DNA of 64,000 nt from Burkholderiales bacterium (GTDB taxonomy: Bacteria; Pseudomonadota; Gammaproteobacteria; Burkholderiales; Burkholderiaceae_C), in contig JAGWTH010000015.1 in the NCBI GenBank assembly GCA_028868995.1, positions 1-64,000 of the forward strand, written 5' to 3'. Below are positions 8,068-39,180 of the stretch, in pieces. The notes beneath the pieces are model-generated. The model searched no databases, had not been told where the DNA came from, and saw nothing but the letters and a program-made list of their open reading frames with translations. Made by a program: the position numbers and the translations under genes. Numbering within the stretch: the stretch's first letter is position 1; every line of letters starts with the position of its first letter.

Positions 8068-9047
8068 TAGCCCAGCACCTCGGGATTGAGCGGGGTGAGC
8101 GGCTTGCCGTCCACCAGGAAGCCGATCAGGTTGTCGGCGGCCAGGTCCGCCATCGCCCGGCGGGTGGTCACCGTGGCGCTGGCGATATGGGGAGTCAGGA
8201 CCACGTTGGGCACCGTCAGCAGGTCGGGATGGACTTTGGGCTCGCCCTCGAACACGTCGAGGCCGGCGGCGGCGATGCGGCCGGCCTTCAGCGCCTGGGC
8301 CAGCGCCGCGTCGTCGACGATGCCGCCGCGGGCGATGTTGACGAGCGTGGCCGTCGGCTTCATGAGCGCGATCTCGGCCGCGCCGATCGCATGGTGCGAC
8401 GCCGCCGTGTAGGGCAGCACCAGCACCAGGTGGTCGGCGGTCTTCAGCAGTTCTTCCTTGCCCACGTAGCGGGCCTTGCATGCGGCCTCGAGTTCGGGCG
8501 TCAGGCGCGACCGGTTGTGGTAGATCACGTTCATGCCGAAACCGTGGGCGCCGCGCTTCGCGATGCCCTGCCCGATGCGGCCCATGCCCAGGATGCCCAG
8601 CGTGCTGCCGTGGACCTCGGCGCCGGCGAACATGTCGTAGCTCCACTTCGTCCACTGGCCGGCGCGCAGGTAATGCTCGCTCTCGCAGATGCGGCGGGCG
8701 GTGGCCATCAGCAGGGCGAAGCCGAAATCCGCGGTGGTCTCGGTCAGCACGTCGGGCGTGTTGGTGGCCAGCACCTTGCGCGCGCTCATCGCAGGGACGT
8801 CGAAGTTGTTGAAGCCCACGGCCATGTTGGCGCAGACCTTCAGATCCGGGCAGGCGGCCAGCAGCGTGGCGTCGATGCGCTCGGTGCCGGTGGTGAAGGC
8901 GCCCACCTTGCCTTGCAGGCGGGCGATCAATTCCGGCTGGCTCCAGGTGGCGTCGGCCTGGTTGGACTCCACCTCGAAGTGCTGTTCGAGGCGCGCGAGG
9001 GTCTGCGGGAACACGGCCCGGGCGACGAGGATGCGGGGTTTGCTCAT
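8067..9047 (-). CDS. 2-hydroxyacid dehydrogenase (glyoxylate/hydroxypyruvate reductase type)
   Basis: 326-residue D-isomer-specific 2-hydroxyacid dehydrogenase, NAD(P)H-dependent, probably interconverting glyoxylate/glycolate or hydroxypyruvate/D-glycerate. The nucleotide-binding motif is GILGMGRIGQGIAKR. The catalytic Arg and Glu/His regions appear as NIARGGIVDDAAL, AGLDVFEGEPKVHP and LTPHIASAT. It starts 5 bases before the stop of the upstream antiporter gene in transcription order and is coupled to rmuC downstream. Exact substrate not determinable. Confidence 0.88.
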   Translation of the reverse strand: MSKPRILVARAVFPQTLARLEQHFEVESNQADATWSQPELIARLQGKVGAFTTGTERIDATLLAACPDLKVCANMAVGFNNFDVPAMSARKVLATNTPDVLTETTADFGFALLMATARRICESEHYLRAGQWTKWSYDMFAGAEVHGSTLGILGMGRIGQGIAKRGAHGFGMNVIYHNRSRLTPELEAACKARYVGKEELLKTADHLVLVLPYTAASHHAIGAAEIALMKPTATLVNIARGGIVDDAALAQALKAGRIAAAGLDVFEGEPKVHPDLLTVPNVVLTPHIASATVTTRRAMADLAADNLIGFLVDGKPLTPLNPEVLG

Positions 9048-9052
9048 GGGGG

Positions 9053-10462
9053 TCAGCGGAACCAGAGGAAGGTCATGACCAGGAACAGCGGGACCAGGAT
9101 GCCCACCGACCAGGCCATGTAGCCGAAGAAGCTGGGCATTTTGACACCGCGATCCTCGGCGATGGCCTTGACCATCATGTTGGGAGCGTTGCCGATGTAG
9201 CTGTTGGCGCCCATGAACACCGAGCCGGCGGATATGGCCGCCAGCACCGGGGCCAGCTGCGTCATCAGCACCTTGGCGTCGCCGCCGGCGGTGTTGAAGA
9301 ACACCAGGTAGGTCGGCGCGTTGTCCAGGAAGGAGCTGAGCGCGCCGCTGGCCCAGAAGTACATGGCGGGATCGGGCGTGCCGTCGGCCCGGGTCACGGC
9401 CGCGATGATGGGTCCGAAGGGACCGTTGGGGCCGGCGCGCAGCATCGCGATCACCGGCACGATGGTCACGAAGATCCCGGCGAAGAGCTTGGCCACCTCC
9501 TGCATCGGGCCCCAGGAGAACTGGTTGGCCTCGTGCACCGGCGCCGGCGTGATCTTCAGCGACAGGAAGGTGACGGCGACCAGGCCCACGTCGCGCACCA
9601 AGTCCGGCAGGCCCAGCTCGGCGCCTGCCAGGTGGAACACCACCGGGGACTTCCAGAAGCCGCTGAGCAGCACCAGTCCCACGATGGCCGCCAGCAGCCA
9701 GAAGTTGCGCGCGCCGTCGAAGCCGATGCCGCGCGTGTCGGGCGTGGGGTCCACCGGGCGGATCTCCTCGCGCCGGTGGTAGTAGTGGAAGTCCAGCGCG
9801 TAGAAGATCGCCAGCAGCGAGCCGACCAGGAACAGGGTCTCGGGGAAGACGTGGGCCACCGTCCAGAAGAAGTCCACGCCCTGCAGGAAGCCCAGGAACA
9901 GCGGCGGGTCGCCCAGCGGCGTGAGCGAGCCGCCGGCGTTCGACACGATGAAGATGAAGAAGATGACCGTATGGACGGTGTGCCTGCGGTTGTCGTTGGC
10001 GCGGATCAGGGGCCGGATCAGCAGCATCGAGGCGCCCGTGGTCCCCATGAAGCTCGCCAGCACGGCGCCGATGGCCAGGATGGCGGTGTTCAGCCCCGGG
10101 CTGCCATGCAGGTTGCCGCGGATGTAGATGCCGCCGGCCACCGTGAACAGCGCCGTGATCAGGATGACGAAGGGGAGGTACTCCTCCACCAGCACGTGCA
10201 CCAGCGCCGAGCCGGCCGCCTCGGCCCCGAACAGGACGGCGAAGGGCACCACGAAGGCGAGCCCCCAGCCGGCGGCCACCTTGCCGAAGTGGTGGTGCCA
10301 GAACCAGGGGGTCAGCAGCGGGCACAGCGCGATCGACAGCAGGATGCCGGCGAAGGGCACGCCCCACAGGGGCGAGAGTCGGGTGGCGTCGACCTGCGCG
10401 GCGGCCGCCCAGGCCGGGCAGAGCAGCAGGCTGGCCAGCAGCAGCGGCCTCAGCTTGGACAT
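9053..10462 (-). CDS. Sodium:proton antiporter family membrane protein
   Basis: 469 residues with an apparent cleavable signal peptide (MSKLRPLLLASLLLCPAWAAAAQ) and about a dozen membrane segments. The family (CitMHS/NhaD-like ion transporter superfamily) is suggested by two repeat-like motifs, FIVSNAGGSLTPLGDPPLF and ALSSFLDNAPTYLVFFN. The NAP/DNAP and GDPP elements match known NhaD-type antiporters. A good ribosome site (GAGGAG) precedes the ATG at 10462. Likely exchanges Na+ for H+; a dicarboxylate or other anion substrate is the alternative. Confidence 0.82.
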   Translation of the reverse strand: MSKLRPLLLASLLLCPAWAAAAQVDATRLSPLWGVPFAGILLSIALCPLLTPWFWHHHFGKVAAGWGLAFVVPFAVLFGAEAAGSALVHVLVEEYLPFVILITALFTVAGGIYIRGNLHGSPGLNTAILAIGAVLASFMGTTGASMLLIRPLIRANDNRRHTVHTVIFFIFIVSNAGGSLTPLGDPPLFLGFLQGVDFFWTVAHVFPETLFLVGSLLAIFYALDFHYYHRREEIRPVDPTPDTRGIGFDGARNFWLLAAIVGLVLLSGFWKSPVVFHLAGAELGLPDLVRDVGLVAVTFLSLKITPAPVHEANQFSWGPMQEVAKLFAGIFVTIVPVIAMLRAGPNGPFGPIIAAVTRADGTPDPAMYFWASGALSSFLDNAPTYLVFFNTAGGDAKVLMTQLAPVLAAISAGSVFMGANSYIGNAPNMMVKAIAEDRGVKMPSFFGYMAWSVGILVPLFLVMTFLWFR

Positions 10463-33163: not shown

Positions 33164-35572
33164 ATGGAGCCATCCGCGACCCCTGACCCCGCGACCGGCG
33201 GCCTCGGCACGCAGGAAGCGCAGCGCCTGCTGGCCACCGTCGGCGCCAACGAGGTGGCCGGCCGGCCCGAGCGCCGCTGGCAGCGCTTCCTCGCCAAGTT
33301 CTGGGGCCCCTCGGCCTGGATGCTGGAAACCATCGCGGTCGTCTCCCTGCTCCTGGGCAAGCACGGCGACGCGGGGCTGGTCGCCTTGCTGCTGGTGCTC
33401 AACGCCGTGCTCGCCTACGCCCAGGAGCGGCGCGCCTCGGCGGCCCTGGAAGCGCTCAAGCAGCGTCTGCAGCTCGAAGCGCGGGTGCTGCGCGACGGCC
33501 GCTGGCAGAAGCTGCCCGCGCGCGAGCTGGTGCCGGGTGACGTGATCCGCTGCCGCGCCGGCGACCTGGTTCCGGCGGACGCGCGCATCGCCTCGGGTTC
33601 TCTTACGGCCGACGAGTCGGTGCTGACCGGCGAATCGCGCGAGCTCGCCAAGCAGGCGGGCGACATGGCGTATTCGGGCACGCTGGTGCGCCACGGCGAG
33701 GCCACCGCGGAAGTGACCGCCACCGGCACCCGCAGCCGCTTCGGGCGAACCGCGCAGCTGGTGCGCGATGCGCAGCCTCAGATGCACGTGGAGGCGCTGA
33801 TCGCGCGCATCGTGCGCTGGCTGGCGCTGATCGTCGGGACGCTGGTGGCCGCCGTGTTCGTGCTGGCCTGGCTGCAAGGCCAGCCGGTGATGGAGACCGC
33901 GCGGCTGTCCCTGGTGCTGCTCATGAGCGCGGTCCCGGTGGCGCTGCCCGTGATGCTGACGGTGACGATGGCGGCCGGGGCCCTGGAGCTCTCGCGCCAG
34001 GGCGTGCTGGTCACGCACCTGAGCGCGGCGGAGGACGCGGCGGTGATGGACACGCTGCTGGTCGACAAGACGGGAACGCTCACCCGGAACCAGCTCGAGC
34101 TCGCCGGCCTGGTCGCCCTCCCGGGCTTCACCGAGGACGAGGTGCTGCGGACCGCGGCGCTGGCCTCCGACGAGGCGGACCAGGACCCGATCGACCTGGC
34201 CGTGCTGCACGCGGCGGCCGCCCGCGGCCTGCCCTGGCCCGGCCCCGGCAGCCGCATCTCCTTCTCGCCCTTCGACCCGGCCAACCGCCGCACCGAGGCG
34301 CTGGTGCGCCTGGACGGCCGGCCGGTGCGCGCGATGAAGGGCGCGGTGCGCACACTGGCTCAGGCCTGCGGCCTGGCCGGCGACGCGCTGCAGGCGCTGC
34401 TGGCCCGGGTCGACCAGGCGGGCGAGGCGGGCCAGCGCGCGCTGGCGGTCGCCCGGTCCGAGGGGGACGGCCCGCCCGTGCTGCTGGGCCTGCTGCTGCT
34501 GCAGGACCCGCCGCGCCCCGACGCCGGCCAGCTGGTGCGGCGCCTGCGCGACCTGGGCATCGACATCAAGATGCTCACCGGCGATGCGCTGCCGGTGGCG
34601 CGCAGCGTCGCTCGCCAGATCGGCCTGGGCGAGATCGCGCGCTATGCGCAGGTGGCGCCCGCCGGCGAGGGGCACGGCACGCCCGACGCCGCGGCCCTGG
34701 CCGCCCTCGACGGCTTCGCCGAGGTCTATCCGGAGGACAAGTTCGCGGTGGCCCGCCAGCTGCAGTCCGCGGACCACGTGGTGGGCATGACCGGCGACGG
34801 CGTCAACGACGCCCCGGCCCTGCGCCAGGCGGAGGTGGGCATCGCGGTGGCCGGCGCGACCGACACGGCCAAGGCGGCTGCGAGCGTCGTGCTGACCCAG
34901 CCGGGGCTCACCAACATCGTGCCCCTGGTGGAACACGGCCGCATGGCCTACCAGCGGGTGCTGACCTGGATCCTCAACAAGATCAGCCGCACGATCGTCA
35001 AGGCGGGCTTCGTCGCCGTGGCCTTCGTCGCCACCGGCCGCTTCGTGGTCTCCGCCTTCGCCATGCTGCTGCTGGTGTTCATGACCGACCTGATGAAGGT
35101 CTCGCTGGCCACCGACCGCGTGGCGCCCTCGCCGCGGCCCGAGTCCTGGGACATCGCCCCGCAGGTGAAGATCGCCGTCGTGCTGGGCCTGCTGATGCTG
35201 CTGGAGTCGCTCGCGGCGCTGGCCGCCGCCTGGAGGCCGCTGCGGCTGGACGCCGATGCCGGGCGGCTGTACGCCTTCAGCTTCCTGGTGATGCTGTATT
35301 TCGGTCCCTTGTCGATCCTGTCGCTGCGCGAGCGCCGCTGGTTCGGCGCCTCCCGGCCCGGCCGGCTGCTGGCCACGGCGATGGCCTCGGAGCTGGTGAT
35401 CGGGACGATCGTGTCCCAGCTCGGAATCGCGGAGCTGCACCCGCTGCCCCTGGCCCAGGTCCTGCTGCTGCTCGCCTACGCGATGGCGTGCAGCCTGCTG
35501 CTCAACGACCCAGTCAAGGTCGGGCTGATGCGCCGGCTGCACGGCGCCGGCGGGGCCGCGCTTCCGGATTAA
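33164..35572 (+). CDS. P3-type plasma-membrane H+-ATPase
   Basis: 802-residue P-type ATPase of the proton-pumping group (PMA1-like), exporting H+ or possibly another cation. Cytoplasmic actuator motif LTGES, phosphorylation site DKTGTLT with Asp301, nucleotide-binding domain, hinge MTGDGVNDAPAL, and up to ten membrane helices. The membrane motif AVPVALPVML replaces the CPC of heavy-metal pumps, as in P3 ATPases. It has no N-terminal metal-binding domain. A FNR-like box precedes it and MarC follows after 28 bases. Such pumps help with acid or anoxic energy stress. Confidence 0.88.
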   Translation: MEPSATPDPATGGLGTQEAQRLLATVGANEVAGRPERRWQRFLAKFWGPSAWMLETIAVVSLLLGKHGDAGLVALLLVLNAVLAYAQERRASAALEALKQRLQLEARVLRDGRWQKLPARELVPGDVIRCRAGDLVPADARIASGSLTADESVLTGESRELAKQAGDMAYSGTLVRHGEATAEVTATGTRSRFGRTAQLVRDAQPQMHVEALIARIVRWLALIVGTLVAAVFVLAWLQGQPVMETARLSLVLLMSAVPVALPVMLTVTMAAGALELSRQGVLVTHLSAAEDAAVMDTLLVDKTGTLTRNQLELAGLVALPGFTEDEVLRTAALASDEADQDPIDLAVLHAAAARGLPWPGPGSRISFSPFDPANRRTEALVRLDGRPVRAMKGAVRTLAQACGLAGDALQALLARVDQAGEAGQRALAVARSEGDGPPVLLGLLLLQDPPRPDAGQLVRRLRDLGIDIKMLTGDALPVARSVARQIGLGEIARYAQVAPAGEGHGTPDAAALAALDGFAEVYPEDKFAVARQLQSADHVVGMTGDGVNDAPALRQAEVGIAVAGATDTAKAAASVVLTQPGLTNIVPLVEHGRMAYQRVLTWILNKISRTIVKAGFVAVAFVATGRFVVSAFAMLLLVFMTDLMKVSLATDRVAPSPRPESWDIAPQVKIAVVLGLLMLLESLAALAAAWRPLRLDADAGRLYAFSFLVMLYFGPLSILSLRERRWFGASRPGRLLATAMASELVIGTIVSQLGIAELHPLPLAQVLLLLAYAMACSLLLNDPVKVGLMRRLHGAGGAALPD

Positions 35573-35600
35573 GCTCGCTGCAAACGCCCGCCCCGACGCG

Positions 35601-36206
35601 ATGTTCAACGACTTCCTGTCCGCCTTCATCCTGCTGCTGCTGGTGCTCGACCCGTTCGGGGCGCTGCCGCTGTTCATCTCGGTCATGCAGCACGTGGCCC
35701 CCGGGCGGCGGCGGCTCGTGGCCCTGCGCGAGACGGCGATCGCCTTCGTCCTGCTGCTGGCCTTCCTGCTGGCGGGCCCGCGTTTCCTGCAGGTGATGAG
35801 CCTGTCGCAGCGCTCGCTGGAGGTGGCCGGCGGCGTGATCCTGCTGATCATTGCCCTGCGCATGGTGTTCGGCCGCGCCGACGCCATCGGCGTGTCGAAC
35901 AGCGACAACGGCGGCGAGCCGCTGATCGTGCCGCTGGCCGTGCCGCTGCTGGCTGGGCCCTCGGCCATGGCCACGGTGCTGGTCCACGCCTCCCGCTACC
36001 CCGAGCGCCTGCTGACCTGGTCGGCGGCCCTGCTGGCGGCGATGACGGTGTCGCTGGCCATGCTGCTGGCGGCCGAAAGGCTGCGCCGCTGGCTGGGCGA
36101 TCCGCTGATCGCGGCCATCGAGCGGCTGATGGGCCTGGTGCTGACGGCGGTGGCGATCGAGATGATCCTCGGCGGCCTCAAGCGCTACCTGCTCGGCAGC
36201 AGCTGA
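35601..36206 (+). CDS. MarC family inner membrane protein
   Basis: 201 residues with six membrane segments of the MarC/UPF0056 family (LLVLDPFGALPLFISVM near the N-terminus, IVPLAVPLLAGPSAMATVLV in the centre). Members are not linked to multidrug resistance as once thought, and their function is open. It begins 28 bases after the proton ATPase and is probably co-transcribed. Confidence 0.87.
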   Translation: MFNDFLSAFILLLLVLDPFGALPLFISVMQHVAPGRRRLVALRETAIAFVLLLAFLLAGPRFLQVMSLSQRSLEVAGGVILLIIALRMVFGRADAIGVSNSDNGGEPLIVPLAVPLLAGPSAMATVLVHASRYPERLLTWSAALLAAMTVSLAMLLAAERLRRWLGDPLIAAIERLMGLVLTAVAIEMILGGLKRYLLGSS

Positions 36207-36296: not shown

Positions 36297-37304
36297 ATGA
36301 AACCCACTGCCGAGAAGCTGCTGTGGATGTACGAGACCATGCTCGTCATCCGCCGCTACGAGGAAGCGCTGGCCCAGGTCTACCTCGAAGGCAAGCTGCC
36401 GCCGGCCATCCAGAAGGGGCTGGCCTTCGACATCGCCTCGGGGCCCATCCCCGGCGAGATGCACCTGGCGGCGGGACAGGAGCCGGTGGCCGTGGGCGTC
36501 TGCGCCCACCTCACCGACGCCGACACGCTGGTGGGCACGCACCGGCCGCACCACTTCGCCATCGCCAAGGGCGTGCCGCTGGACCGGATGACCGCGGAGA
36601 TCTTCGGCAAGGCCACGGGCCTCGGCCGCGGCAAGGGCGGCCACATGCACCTGTTCGACCCCGAGCGCCGCTTCAGCTGCAGCGGCATCGTCGGCGCCAG
36701 CCTGCCGCCGGCCTGCGGCGCGGCGCTGGCGGCGAAGATGACCGGGCGCAAGACGGTGGGCGTCGCCTTCTTCGGCGAGGGCGCGGCCAACCAGGGCACC
36801 TTCCACGAATCGCTGAACCTCTCGGCCCTGTGGCAGTTGCCGGCGATCTTCGTGTGCGAGGACAACCGCTGGGCGATCTCGGTGCCCAAGGACCACGCGA
36901 CGGCGATCCCGTCCAATGCCGCGCGCGCCGCCGCCTACGACATCCCCGGCATCGCCGTGGACAGGAACGATGCGATCGCCGTCTATGAGGCCATGGCCCG
37001 GGCAGTCGAGCGCGCTCGCGGCGGCGGCGGCCCGACCCTCATCGAGGTGAAGACCGACCGCTGGTTCGGCCATTTCCAGGGCGACGCCGAGGTCTACCGG
37101 CCCAAGGGCGAGGTGCCGGAGCTGCGCAAGCACGACCCCATCCCCGCACTGGCCGCGGAGCTGCGCCGCCAGCAGCTGCTGGACGACGCCAAGGACAGGA
37201 GCCTGCAGAACGGCGCCGCCGCCCGCGTGCAGGTCGCGATGGATTTCGCCCGCCGCAGCCCCTATCCGGCCGCGGACGAGGCGCTGCAGGACGTCTTTGC
37301 CTGA
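36297..37304 (+). CDS. Thiamine-dependent 2-oxoacid (pyruvate/acetoin-type) dehydrogenase E1 subunit alpha
   Basis: 335-residue E1 alpha of the acetoin/branched-chain type. The TPP motif is FFGEGAANQGTFHESLNLSA to EDNRW in pieces, with TGLGRGKGGHMHLFD and the phosphorylation-loop equivalent in GHFQGDAEVYR. The ATG at 36297 has AAGGAG before it. First gene of a tight operon: the beta subunit follows by 15 bases, then a separate lipoyl domain and a lipoate-ligase-like gene. Pyruvate, acetoin or another short 2-oxo/hydroxy-ketone are possible substrates; the absence of AcoC/AcoL-like genes speaks against a standard acetoin operon. Confidence 0.87.
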   Translation: MKPTAEKLLWMYETMLVIRRYEEALAQVYLEGKLPPAIQKGLAFDIASGPIPGEMHLAAGQEPVAVGVCAHLTDADTLVGTHRPHHFAIAKGVPLDRMTAEIFGKATGLGRGKGGHMHLFDPERRFSCSGIVGASLPPACGAALAAKMTGRKTVGVAFFGEGAANQGTFHESLNLSALWQLPAIFVCEDNRWAISVPKDHATAIPSNAARAAAYDIPGIAVDRNDAIAVYEAMARAVERARGGGGPTLIEVKTDRWFGHFQGDAEVYRPKGEVPELRKHDPIPALAAELRRQQLLDDAKDRSLQNGAAARVQVAMDFARRSPYPAADEALQDVFA

Positions 37305-37319
37305 ACCGAGGAGCACGCC

Positions 37320-38354
37320 ATGGCAGACCCGCGCAACCTCACGATGGCCCAGGCGATCGCCGAGGCGATCGGCCAGGAAATGGAACGCGACCCCAAGGTG
37401 TTCGCGATGGGCGAGGACATCGGCCGCTACGGCGGCATCTTCAGCGCCACCAGCGGCCTGCTGGACCGCTTCGGCCCCGAGCGCATCCGCGACACGCCGA
37501 TCTCGGAAAGCGCCTTCATCGGCGCGGCCACGGGTGCGGCGGCCGAAGGCCTGCGGCCGATCGCCGAACTGATGTTCGTCGACTTCTTCGGCGTGTGCAT
37601 GGACCAGATCTACAACCACCTGGCCAAGAACACCTACATGTCCGGCGGCGCGGTCAAGCTGCCGGTGGTGCTGATGACGGCCATCGGCGGCGGCTACGGC
37701 GACGCGGCGCAGCACTCGCAGTGCCTCTATTCCACCTTCGCGCACATGCCGGGCCTGAAGGTGGTGGTTCCCTCCAACGCCTACGACGCCAAGGGCCTGA
37801 TGATCCAGGCGATCCGCGACGACAACCCGGTGATGTACTTCTTCCACAAGGGCCTCATGGGCCTGCCCTGGATGCAGTACTTCGAAGGCGCCACCACCAC
37901 GGTGCCGGCCGAGCCCTACACCCTGCCCTTCGGCCAGGCGGCCGTGGTGCGCAAGGGCAGCGACGTGACCATCGTCGCGGTCAGCCAGATGGTGCACAAG
38001 GCCGTGCTCGCGGCCAACGAGCTGACGGCGCAAGGCATCTCGGCGGAGGTGGTCGACCTGCGCACGCTGGTGCCGCTGGACATCGATACGGTGCTGAAGT
38101 CGGTGGCGAAGACCGGCCGCCTGCTGATCGCCGACGAGGACTACCTGCGCTTCGGCTTCAGCGGCGAGATCGCCGCCTGCGTCGCCGAACGGATGGACGA
38201 GGTGAAGCTGAAGGCGCCGATCAGGCGCCTGGCGGTGCCGCAGGTGCCCATCCCCTACAGCCGGCCGCTGGAGCAGGCCGTGATCCCCTCAGTCGAACGC
38301 ATCGCCGAGGCGTGCGTCGCGCTGGTCGGCGCCGGGGTGAAGGCCATCGCATGA
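37320..38354 (+). CDS. Thiamine-dependent 2-oxoacid dehydrogenase E1 subunit beta
   Basis: 344-residue transketolase-fold beta subunit paired with the E1 alpha just upstream. Conserved segments: MGEDIGRYGGIF, DTPISESAFIGAATGAA, LPVVLMTAIGGGYGDAAQHSQ, and VVDLRTLVPLD in the C-terminal domain. GAGGA precedes the ATG. The stop overlaps the next start (ATGA), so the lipoyl protein is translationally coupled to it. Confidence 0.9.
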   Translation: MADPRNLTMAQAIAEAIGQEMERDPKVFAMGEDIGRYGGIFSATSGLLDRFGPERIRDTPISESAFIGAATGAAAEGLRPIAELMFVDFFGVCMDQIYNHLAKNTYMSGGAVKLPVVLMTAIGGGYGDAAQHSQCLYSTFAHMPGLKVVVPSNAYDAKGLMIQAIRDDNPVMYFFHKGLMGLPWMQYFEGATTTVPAEPYTLPFGQAAVVRKGSDVTIVAVSQMVHKAVLAANELTAQGISAEVVDLRTLVPLDIDTVLKSVAKTGRLLIADEDYLRFGFSGEIAACVAERMDEVKLKAPIRRLAVPQVPIPYSRPLEQAVIPSVERIAEACVALVGAGVKAIA

Positions 38355-38602
38355 ACCTCGTGGATGTCGTGCTGCCCGATCGATTCTGGGAGGGCGTGGA
38401 TGCGAACGTGCAGGCGCTGCTCGATGCCTGGATGGTCTCCGCCGACGCGACCGTAGAGGCGGGCCAGCCGCTCGCGCGCGCCGTGCTGGTGAAGACCACG
38501 CTGGAGATCGAGGCGCCCGTGTCCGGGAAGATGCAGGGTTTCCTGGTCGCCGCCGGCGACAACTTCGCGCGCGGGCAGGTGCTCGCGCGCATCGAGACCT
38601 AG
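38351..38602 (+). CDS. Free-standing lipoyl-domain protein
   Basis: 83-residue biotinyl/lipoyl carrier domain with nothing else attached: no E1-binding domain and no acyltransferase core. The candidate modified lysine is K48 in RAVLVKTTLEIEAPVSG, at the tip of the beta hairpin, followed by the second half-motif GFLVAAGDNFARGQVLARIE. It overlaps the E1 beta stop by four bases and shares one base with the start of the ligase-like gene (TAGTG), so the three are tightly coupled. It may receive the acyl group from the E1 and pass it to an E2 core encoded elsewhere, or act as a hydrogen/acyl carrier by itself. Confidence 0.8.
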   Translation: MNLVDVVLPDRFWEGVDANVQALLDAWMVSADATVEAGQPLARAVLVKTTLEIEAPVSGKMQGFLVAAGDNFARGQVLARIET

Positions 38603-39180
38603 TGTCCGGCCCTCGCGCCTGGGTGGCCGTGGGCCGCACGCCGGCACTGGTGCTGGGGCGCTCCCAGCACGCGCTGCGGCCGGACACGGCGTTGCGCGTG
38701 CGTCGCCGCGCCAGCGGCGGCGGAGCGGTCCTCACCGGGCCGTGGATGCTGCGCGCGCTGCTGCGCCTGCCGCGCGCGCATCCTCTCGCGCGCGGGGGCC
38801 CGACGACGCTGGCGCGCTGGTTCGGCGGCCTGCACCTGCCCTGGCTGCGCGGCCTGGGCATCGCCGACGCGGAGCTCTATGCCGGCCCGTTCGAGGACCA
38901 CTGGGCCTGCTTCCTCGGGCGCGGGCCGGGTGAGGTCCTCGTCGACGACCGCAAGCTGGTGGGCATCGCCCAGGCCTGGCATCGCGACCGCATCCTGCTG
39001 TGGTCGGCCACGCTGCTGGAGCCGTCGCCGTGGGCGCGGCTGGGGGAGGCGTTCGGGCGGTCTGAGGCGGCGGACGCGCTGGCGGCAAGGACGATCTCGG
39101 CGCGGCAGTGCGTGGGGGGCCGCGTCGAACCGGCTGCGTGGGTGGCAAGCCTACGGGAAGTGCTTGCAGCGCGCGCCTGA
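38602..39180 (+). CDS. Lipoate-protein ligase-like protein (short LplA/BPL fold)
   Basis: 192 residues with the LplA-type lipoyl-binding motif VRRRASGGGAVLTGP and the second motif VDDRKLVGIAQ, whose lysine contacts lipoyl-AMP in LplA. It is shorter than LplA (over 330) and than octanoyltransferases, and lacks the usual N-terminal helix because the frame starts right at the strand before GRSQ. The GTG start overlaps the lipoyl-protein stop. The position argues that it charges or transfers lipoate to the adjacent free-standing lipoyl domain. Whether it adenylates lipoate itself or only transfers it cannot be told. Confidence 0.72.
   Translation: MSGPRAWVAVGRTPALVLGRSQHALRPDTALRVRRRASGGGAVLTGPWMLRALLRLPRAHPLARGGPTTLARWFGGLHLPWLRGLGIADAELYAGPFEDHWACFLGRGPGEVLVDDRKLVGIAQAWHRDRILLWSATLLEPSPWARLGEAFGRSEAADALAARTISARQCVGGRVEPAAWVASLREVLAARA

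Follow-up and report, generated by a model that had tools for sequence, protein, structure and literature searches.

The four genes at positions 36297 to 39180 of the window, by which we mean the whole 64,000-nucleotide stretch from a Burkholderiales bacterium, form a set that goes beyond chance: their order recurs elsewhere, the structure models are confident and the lysine of the encoded lipoyl carrier is kept. The chances appear evenly balanced that this operon is one part of a disassembled 2-oxoacid or acetoin-type dehydrogenase, in which a LipM-type octanoyltransferase would serve a free lipoyl domain protein and the E2 component would act in trans.

Open reading frame calls and Pfam profiles agree on four genuine genes, confirming the sequence-only reading of the locus as E1 alpha, E1 beta, a protein consisting of nothing but a lipoyl domain with Lys48, and a 192-residue LplA-like protein. 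The E1 alpha subunit of a ThDP-dependent dehydrogenase (335 aa, 36297..37304, + strand) matches PF00676 (E1_dh) with 245 bits and the NCBIfam model PDH_E1_alph_y with 297 bits, the latter under the cut-off of 394. Its GEGAANQG is one form of the motif GEG[AG]xNQG that is present in 47 of 50 aligned E1 alpha rows, two of the 50 being outgroup sequences. The E1 beta subunit (344 aa, 37320..38354, + strand) is recognized by PF02779/PF02780 (Transket_pyr 143 bits, Transketolase_C 125 bits) and also by NF006667 (333.5 bits, above the cut-off of 321). It is followed by the free-standing lipoyl domain protein, here termed LD (83 aa, 38351..38602, + strand; PF00364, Biotin_lipoyl, 32.3 bits with a cut-off of 22.1), and by a protein of the LplA/LipB fold, here termed LIG, that starts with GTG (192 aa, 38602..39180, + strand; PF21948, LplA-B_cat, 28.5 bits with a cut-off of 27). 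Each gene had been said to overlap the next by one to four bases, which is true for E1 beta and LD (4 nt, ATGA) and for LD and LIG (1 nt, TAGTG) but not for the two E1 genes, which are spaced by 15 bp (stop ending at 37304, next ATG at 37320). The operon was also correctly described as devoid of an E2 core and of E3: no PF00198 domain and no E3 were found among the reading frames of 36297-39180.

The AF2 model of LD (pLDDT 96.1, pTM 0.81) finds biotinyl/lipoyl folds as its structural matches. Lys48 (codon AAG, 38492..38494, + strand), the candidate lipoylation site, is invariant in alignments A2 (6 rows) and A4 (28 rows), and all 50 LDs examined from relatives present their lysine in the context [VIL]K[TSA]. 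With the PF00364 fold and the hairpin lysine in place, lipoylation of LD is predicted. Biotinylated lysines usually reside in an MKM context, and we rejected a biotin carrier despite the biotinyl fold matches on account of the E1 genes in the operon and a lysine outside this context. Glycine cleavage H proteins are longer, and LD with just 83 residues was not taken for one of them; chance reading frames were rejected because the gene order recurs. It had further been suggested that the VLVK surroundings of the lysine explain the need for a special ligase. LD from genome G017, however, reads VLVKATLE while no LIG was found in that genome, so that the context alone does not demand a special enzyme. 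A search of open-licence PMC for free-standing lipoyl domains found no literature.

The same gene order is indeed found in other genomes. In a survey of 81 loci, comprising 80 fetched relatives and the window, E1-E1-LD-LIG is present in 24 (class A, including the window) and adjoins AcoX in five more (class Ax). Another 23 loci carry an additional gene, placed after LD and before LIG, for an E2 catalytic core that stands alone (class B), while 29 contain LIG without LD (class C), two of these at contig edges. The motif DHRA[IV]DG occurs in all 23 class B cores, that of locus L107 being partial, and PF00198 is the sole match of the one core that was scanned (L132, 238 aa). Judged from these sequences, class B relatives have an E2 that is split into a separate carrier and a separate acyltransferase, and the clade of the window lacks the core. 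AcoR-like activators are encoded near 19/23 class B and 5/5 class Ax loci, in favour of a dehydrogenase of this type, but near 3/29 of class C and near none of the 24 loci of class A, to which the window belongs, which speaks against it; nor did tblastn give a match to AcoX or AcoR in the 16 kb covered on this contig around the operon. Loci L108 and L110 contain a second, acoAB-like E1 set beside AcoX that shares 40/50% identity with E1 alpha and E1 beta of the window. Plasmids yielded no match to the window LIG. On the basis of gene content, the arrangement is spread over many genera of beta-proteobacteria, and its conservation in relatives supports the notion that a detached lipoyl carrier belongs with this E1.

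The idea of a ligase dedicated to this carrier fared less well. Among 100 family genomes, eight encode an E1 beta at least 74% identical to that of the window (74-79% in seven family genomes), and two of the eight, G017 and G094, have LD while no LIG was found. None of the ten LIG-only genomes tested has an E1 beta at or above 74%, and a single one, G095, contains a near-full-length free LD, its E1 beta being 60% identical. Going by these occurrences, LIG is not strictly dedicated to LD, since each occurs without the other, a point that also weighs against the disassembled dehydrogenase considered here.

That a protein of the LplA/B fold is encoded together with the carrier is supported. The AF2 model of LIG (pLDDT 95.9, pTM 0.91) consists of a single domain, and no accessory LplB domain is found in its 192 residues. 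The stretch RRRASGGGAV (38701..38730, + strand) represents the glycine-rich motif of the fold and aligns with RxSGGGAV of solved LplA. Cys103 (codon 38908..38910, + strand), the candidate thioester nucleophile, and Lys118 (codon 38953..38955, + strand), the conserved lysine of the fold, are both invariant in alignments A1 (10 rows, gathered by similarity to the window LIG with no Cys pattern imposed) and A3 (57 rows). They align with C150, the sole cysteine, and with the GRK lysine, respectively, of the sequence we take to be that of LipM from Bacillus subtilis, likewise a single-domain protein of this fold; Lys118 also aligns with the lysine of LplA. The LIG profile scores 55.8 bits on the assumed LipM sequence, 24.6 bits on Escherichia coli LplA, 24.1 bits on the LipL-like structure 2p5i, 0.1 bits on LipB of the same genome and at most 2.3 bits on 500 shuffled LipM sequences. 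The Cys/Lys pair and the profile scores thus make LIG, the shortened ligase proposed earlier, look more like an ATP-independent octanoyltransferase of the LipM type than an ATP-dependent ligase. Its setting differs from that of LipM insofar as LIG resides beside an E1-LD operon in beta-proteobacteria, whereas Proteobacteria are stated to contain LipB only and never LipM (PMC10332631); the window copy also differs in lacking the N-terminal helix.

Two other activities have to be considered for LIG. It is possible, if rather doubtful, that LIG is a LipL-like amidotransferase charging LD, or other lipoyl domains where LD is missing, with octanoyl or lipoyl groups taken over from GcvH or a different lipoyl protein. 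This would agree with the persistence of LIG in genomes without LD and with BH3822 (2p5i), which scores about as high as LplA and has a GKKFAGISQRR-type motif in common with LIG; the profile score is, however, some 32 bits below that for the assumed LipM, and the genome of the window already has LipB, characterized in PMC10332631 as an all-purpose transferase. We regard it as unlikely that LIG works with ATP as a genuine lipoate-protein ligase, supplying LD with scavenged free lipoate or octanoate in the manner of sLpl(AB)-LbpA. LplA structures are at the top of the Foldseek matches, and SGGGAV as well as the RK..G lysine are common to LIG and LplA. Yet LipB and LipL-like structures are also among the top matches, and fold matches cannot separate LplA from LipB/LipM because all share one scaffold, according to PMC7253636. 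Furthermore, the LplB domain is absent, Thermoplasma LplA has Ser where LIG has its invariant Cys when both are aligned to the assumed LipM, and the profile favours that LipM over LplA by about 31 bits. The sHdr-LbpA systems do resemble the window operon in encoding a free lipoyl carrier together with its own LplA/B-fold protein, but no Hdr or LipS1/S2 gene was recognized adjoining the operon.

In the disassembled dehydrogenase that we consider here, LIG would accept octanoyl from acyl carrier protein as a thioester on Cys103 and hand it to Lys48 of LD, whereupon LipA of the same genome would insert the sulfurs. E1 alpha-beta with ThDP would cleave an alpha-ketoacid or an acetoin-like alpha-hydroxyketone and reductively acylate the lipoyl group of LD, which would then diffuse to an acyltransferase whose gene lies outside the operon in the genome of the window, forming acyl-CoA; with class B operons, delivery would be to the free-standing E2 core encoded beside LD. 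A shared Lpd would finally reoxidize LD. The genome contains LipB on contig G000:C73 and, as recognized by eye, a LipA-like gene beside lipB and an Lpd-like gene beside sucAB on C58. PF00198 picks out just two of its proteins, namely SucB and an E2 located at the edge of a contig. No aceF was found in the assembly, but nothing readable as accB was found either, and we therefore draw no conclusion from the missing aceF; the assembly may have gaps. It is quite unlikely that LD instead acts as an electron carrier, with E1 yielding free acid and reduced LD feeding Lpd or another acceptor without formation of a CoA ester. Class A operons lack E2, and with LbpA a lipoyl carrier engaged in redox reactions is already known (PMC6067878), but class B clusters retain the E2 core with its catalytic motif, and LD of the window, 83 residues long, has no Cys at all, whereas the same paper describes two conserved cysteines for most LbpA.

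Acetoin (acoXABC) and 2-oxoacid dehydrogenase complexes share the ThDP-dependent E1 alpha-beta with the window operon, and AcoX or AcoR-like neighbours link some of its relatives to acetoin dehydrogenase. The difference lies in LD being a separate protein, in an E2 core that is separate or absent, and in an operon without E3. In the canonical-looking aco loci L221 and L222, by contrast, E2 reads by eye as a lipoyl domain and an alpha/beta-hydrolase in one chain, for L221 also by similarity to a hydrolase query. Catalysis with a lipoyl domain supplied in trans, as proposed here, is described in PMC10415282 for the Corynebacterium OdhA/AceF hybrid complex, although that domain is still part of AceF. 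Open-licence PMC was also searched for work joining at least three of GMC oxidoreductase, pyruvate dehydrogenase E1, Thauera and acoR, and none was found.

A decayed state of the window operon, as a relic with a divergent E1, a truncated LIG and no E2 partner, is improbable, for the long E1 branch (0.55, median 0.037), the lack in LIG of the N-terminal EQxWN helix seen in at least 90% of 57 rows, and GPGEV in place of SPWEV in the same protein are opposed by four open reading frames, a third-position GC of 0.91-0.95 in E1 alpha, E1 beta and LIG (LD being below the size covered), confident LD and LIG models and the retention of Lys48, Cys103 and Lys118. Given the long branch and the missing helix, the window copy may nevertheless have drifted in function.

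An unexpected observation concerns the start of LIG in 17 relatives, which lacks a nearby ATG, GTG or TTG. A GTA or ATA codon, built from the last base of the last LD codon and the TAA/TAG stop of LD, overlaps the LD stop instead. No slippery heptamer that could lead to LIG by a -1 slip was noticed by eye at the LD stop, though such a slip may still be the route taken. The Shine-Dalgarno-like stretch before the LD stop is not specific to start-less loci because it is likewise seen in class B loci that have a regular ATG, L113 being an example. When open-licence PMC was searched for GUA/AUA start codons, the titles among the matches listed were those of organelle-genome and irisin papers. With less than even odds, these loci may represent a family of fully disassembled dehydrogenases in which a freely diffusing lipoyl protein would replace the tethered swinging arm and would be charged by the first LipM-type octanoyltransferase recognized in Proteobacteria, an enzyme that in relatives from Rhodoferax, Polaromonas, Hydrogenophaga and Ideonella might be translated from GTA/ATA or through an equally unusual recoding.

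Textbooks account for the giant 2-oxoacid dehydrogenase complexes by the channelling of substrates on tethered lipoyl domains. Were E1, carrier and acyltransferase to work in nature as independent proteins, the benefit of tethering could be put to a direct test, and the start-less LIG genes offer a natural test case for non-canonical initiation. If beta-proteobacteria do possess a LipM-type enzyme, the published picture of how lipoate assembly is distributed would, moreover, have to change.

The operon at 36297-39180 on the plus strand comprises genes for E1 alpha (335 aa), E1 beta (344 aa), the free-standing protein LD (38351-38602, plus strand, 83 aa), which consists of nothing but a lipoyl/biotinyl-type domain, and LIG (38602-39180, plus strand, 192 aa), a protein of the LplA/LipB fold whose gene starts with GTG. 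The sequence-only reading had assigned the domains of all four genes in this way, and Pfam and NCBIfam agree with it. It had also described each gene as overlapping the next, which holds for the last two junctions (4 and 1 nt) and not for E1 alpha and E1 beta, which lie 15 bp apart. AlphaFold models of LIG (pLDDT 95.9, pTM 0.91) and LD (pLDDT 96.1, pTM 0.81) are confident, and their Foldseek neighbours are LplA, LipB and LipL-like structures for the former and biotinyl and lipoyl domains for the latter. Just upstream of E1 alpha, genes for a plasma-membrane-type proton P-ATPase and a MarC-family protein reside on the same strand (33164-36206); as the gaps amount to 28 bp between these two and 90 bp on to E1 alpha, a shared transcript with the E1 operon is possible.

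A profile search of genome contigs with an alignment of 10 LIG proteins yielded 180 relatives, the best 80 of which were used. Among these 80 loci and the window, tblastn context revealed four ARRANGEMENTS, here termed classes A, Ax, B and C. Class A has the order E1-E1-LD-LIG (24 loci including the window), class Ax adds AcoX (5 loci), and in class B the genes for LD and LIG are separated by that of a free-standing E2 core (23 loci, with L107 assigned by hand because its contig begins within the E2 core). Class C (29 loci, representative L076) has LIG and no LD in the fetched stretch and takes in L061 and L064, in which LIG starts 6 and 203 bases from the contig end, so that an LD gene may have escaped notice. 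All 23 class B loci have the E2-core motif DHRA[IV]DG (L107 being partial), and the 238-aa core of L132, the sole one profile-scanned, matched PF00198 only. An AcoR-like sigma-54 activator is encoded nearby in 19/23 class B, 5/5 class Ax, 3/29 class C and 0/24 class A loci. A GMC oxidoreductase is found close to 21/23 class B loci, and it is possible that these represent an uncharacterised alcohol/ketone catabolic cluster. Class B members are L016, L101, L102, L107, L111-L115, L117-L129, L132 and L135; some of the clusters additionally encode a small protein that looks secreted, as well as a VOC protein. An E1 tree was calculated from 48 rows and two acoAB-like outgroup rows by a quick method with SH-aLRT support only, leaving aside L094, L107, L116 and L123, in which E1 genes are missing, partial or split. 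Twenty class A rows form one clade (SH-aLRT 99), two more (L104 and L109) branch at the base, and the E1 of the window sits on a long branch of unsure place beside the B/Ax group (85).

The four-gene order recurs elsewhere: E1-E1-LD-LIG is clustered in six genomes of the window's family, namely those with both LIG and E1 beta, and in G003, one of the six, an E2 core intervenes before LIG. LIG was matched in 10/100 family genomes and the E1 beta subfamily, at an identity of at least 74%, in 8/100, the window's included; G095 provides a ninth E1 beta (60% identity) among the matches listed. The order-wide sample contained LIG in 9/300 genomes. Across the phylum 9/398 genomes matched in a scan that scored at most seven first-look candidates per genome and may thus have missed some, and only the window's own match spans most of the profile. 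The genera named among the best 80 relatives are, as far as we recognise them, beta-proteobacterial; broader labels are carried by some metagenome-assembled genomes (L063, "Gammaproteobacteria bacterium"; L064 and L075, "Proteobacteria bacterium").

LIG had been proposed as a dedicated partner of LD, which does not hold strictly, since each occurs without the other. In G017 (locus L232) and G094 (L235), E1-E1-LD is present and LIG was not found in the genome. The LD of G017 has the same VLVK context around its lysine, and so this context, which the sequence-only reading offered as a reason for a special ligase, does not on its own require a special enzyme. A 310-aa gene, radical-SAM-like by eye, follows LD in LIG's place in L232 (2822-3754). 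The 60% E1 genes of G095 (L220) are accompanied by a 76-aa LD; LIG is absent from their immediate neighbourhood and is encoded elsewhere in the genome. Among ten LIG-only genomes (G004, G010, G044, G095, G497, G560, G577, G615, G650 and G762), an E1 beta of at least 70% identity was found in none (best 60%, G095), and two further genomes submitted to this search, G600 and G626, have the operon. Among the matches listed, G095 alone has a near-full-length LD-type match; those of the other nine are shorter and lie inside longer open frames, a pattern that carboxylases and E2s would be expected to give. LIG-type proteins with Cys and Lys intact and LD absent are encoded in the class C loci (29/81) and in L020-L022 (G010, G004 and G095), and a gene read by eye as hemB lies near LIG in six of the former and in all three of the latter.

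Is LIG a ligase or an octanoyltransferase? It scores barely above the cut-off of the Pfam model LplA-B_cat (28.5 versus 27 bits) and far below that of the NCBIfam lipoate-ligase model (12.4 versus 280). Cys103 and Lys118 are invariant in 10 LIG proteins retrieved with the window protein as query, no cysteine being imposed on the search, and also in 57 LIG rows hand-picked from the 80 loci, the window and L015; both residues occur in 80/80 scanned loci, a count biased because the scan patterns included them. The 57-row profile gave 55.8 bits on a provisional sequence of Bacillus subtilis LipM, at best 2.3 bits on 500 shuffled LipMs and 0.1 bits on the organism's own LipB; among solved structures, Escherichia coli LplA (24.6 bits) and the LipL-like 2p5i (24.1 bits) scored best. 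In the alignment, Cys103 corresponds to C150 and Lys118 to the GRK lysine of LipM. Position 150 is that of the active-site cysteine of LipM, and the only cysteine of the provisional sequence sits there, which supports that sequence without standing in for a database record. The window's LIG has an ordinary GTG start but lacks the EQxWN helix. Its closest relative in the family sample (L015 in G044, 8573-9238, 49%) is likewise devoid of this N-terminal helix, and its SGGG motif is altered; this E1 beta subfamily was not found in G044. Excerpts of PMC7253636 place the active-site cysteines of LipB and LipM on different loops and urge caution in deriving function from sequence alone within the LplA/LipB scaffold, and an excerpt of PMC10332631 credits Proteobacteria with LipB only and never LipM.

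In 17/24 class A loci (L059, L063, L068, L072, L074, L080, L081, L082, L090 and L093-L100) the LIG frame, at -1 relative to LD, continues straight past the LD stop, and LIG has no nearby ATG, GTG or TTG. Upstream, such codons are absent up to the nearest in-frame stop in 10/17 loci, and in the other seven the nearest lies 178 or 220 bases off, within the LD gene; downstream, the first such codon follows at +32 (L093), +53 (three loci), +71 (L059) or, in twelve loci, +98/+101. Overlapping the LD stop is GTA in 12/17 and ATA in 5/17 loci, at a position where GTGA or ATGA is found in L062 and several others. By eye, AGGA or GGAG occurs within 14 bases before the LD stop in 15/17 loci, and likewise in loci with ordinary starts. 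For 16 of the 17 loci (L059 differs in junction length), dN/dS, calculated pairwise among related sequences whose synonymous sites approach saturation, is 0.18 in the LIG frame versus 1.26 and 1.42 in the other frames over the first 14 codons after the LD stop, and 0.34 versus 1.39 and 1.43 over the first 32. As the ratio is low in the LIG frame alone, the stretch just past the LD stop is most likely translated in that frame. The route to LIG may be near-cognate initiation at GTA/ATA, reinitiation, or frameshifting that would result in an LD-LIG fusion.

The window's own genome (3.76 Mb, 81 contigs, labelled 99.67% complete) contains two PF00198 E2s. One is SucB on contig C58, adjoining a sucA-type E1 and an Lpd-like gene (Lpd by eye); the other sits at a contig edge, on C64, and precedes a reading frame that looks ACP-like by eye. 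The edge of C14 encodes a lipoyl domain along with paired E1 alpha and E1 beta, and C14:1-2450 and C64:1-900 may be the two parts of one further operon for E1 alpha-beta and E2 that ends in the ACP-like frame. The one AceE above the family cut-off (C73:98725-101289) resides beside an Lrp-like regulator, with no E2 recognised adjacent. Contig C73 also carries LipB with a LipA-like neighbour (LipA by eye). Neither aceF nor a match readable as accB was found in the assembly, and since accB is expected to be essential, assembly gaps are likely.

The individual parts of the system are already known. A free LD, a split or missing E2 and a LipM-like loader were not found together in the portions of the open-licence PMC literature consulted, and it is therefore the combination that appears new. 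In the best supported scheme, LIG would octanoylate Lys48 of LD with octanoyl-ACP as donor and LipA would then complete the lipoate; E1 would acylate LD, which would hand over to an E2 in trans and be reoxidised by Lpd. Residue conservation and profile scores suggest the transferase step, and the class B operons point at an E2 in trans; OdhA/AceF offers a precedent for catalysis with the lipoyl domain in trans (excerpt of PMC10415282). The AcoX/AcoR-like neighbours of relatives outside class A, together with the similarity of the window's E1 to an acoAB-like set (40/50% identity), suggest that the substrate may be a 2-oxoacid or an acetoin-like hydroxyketone.
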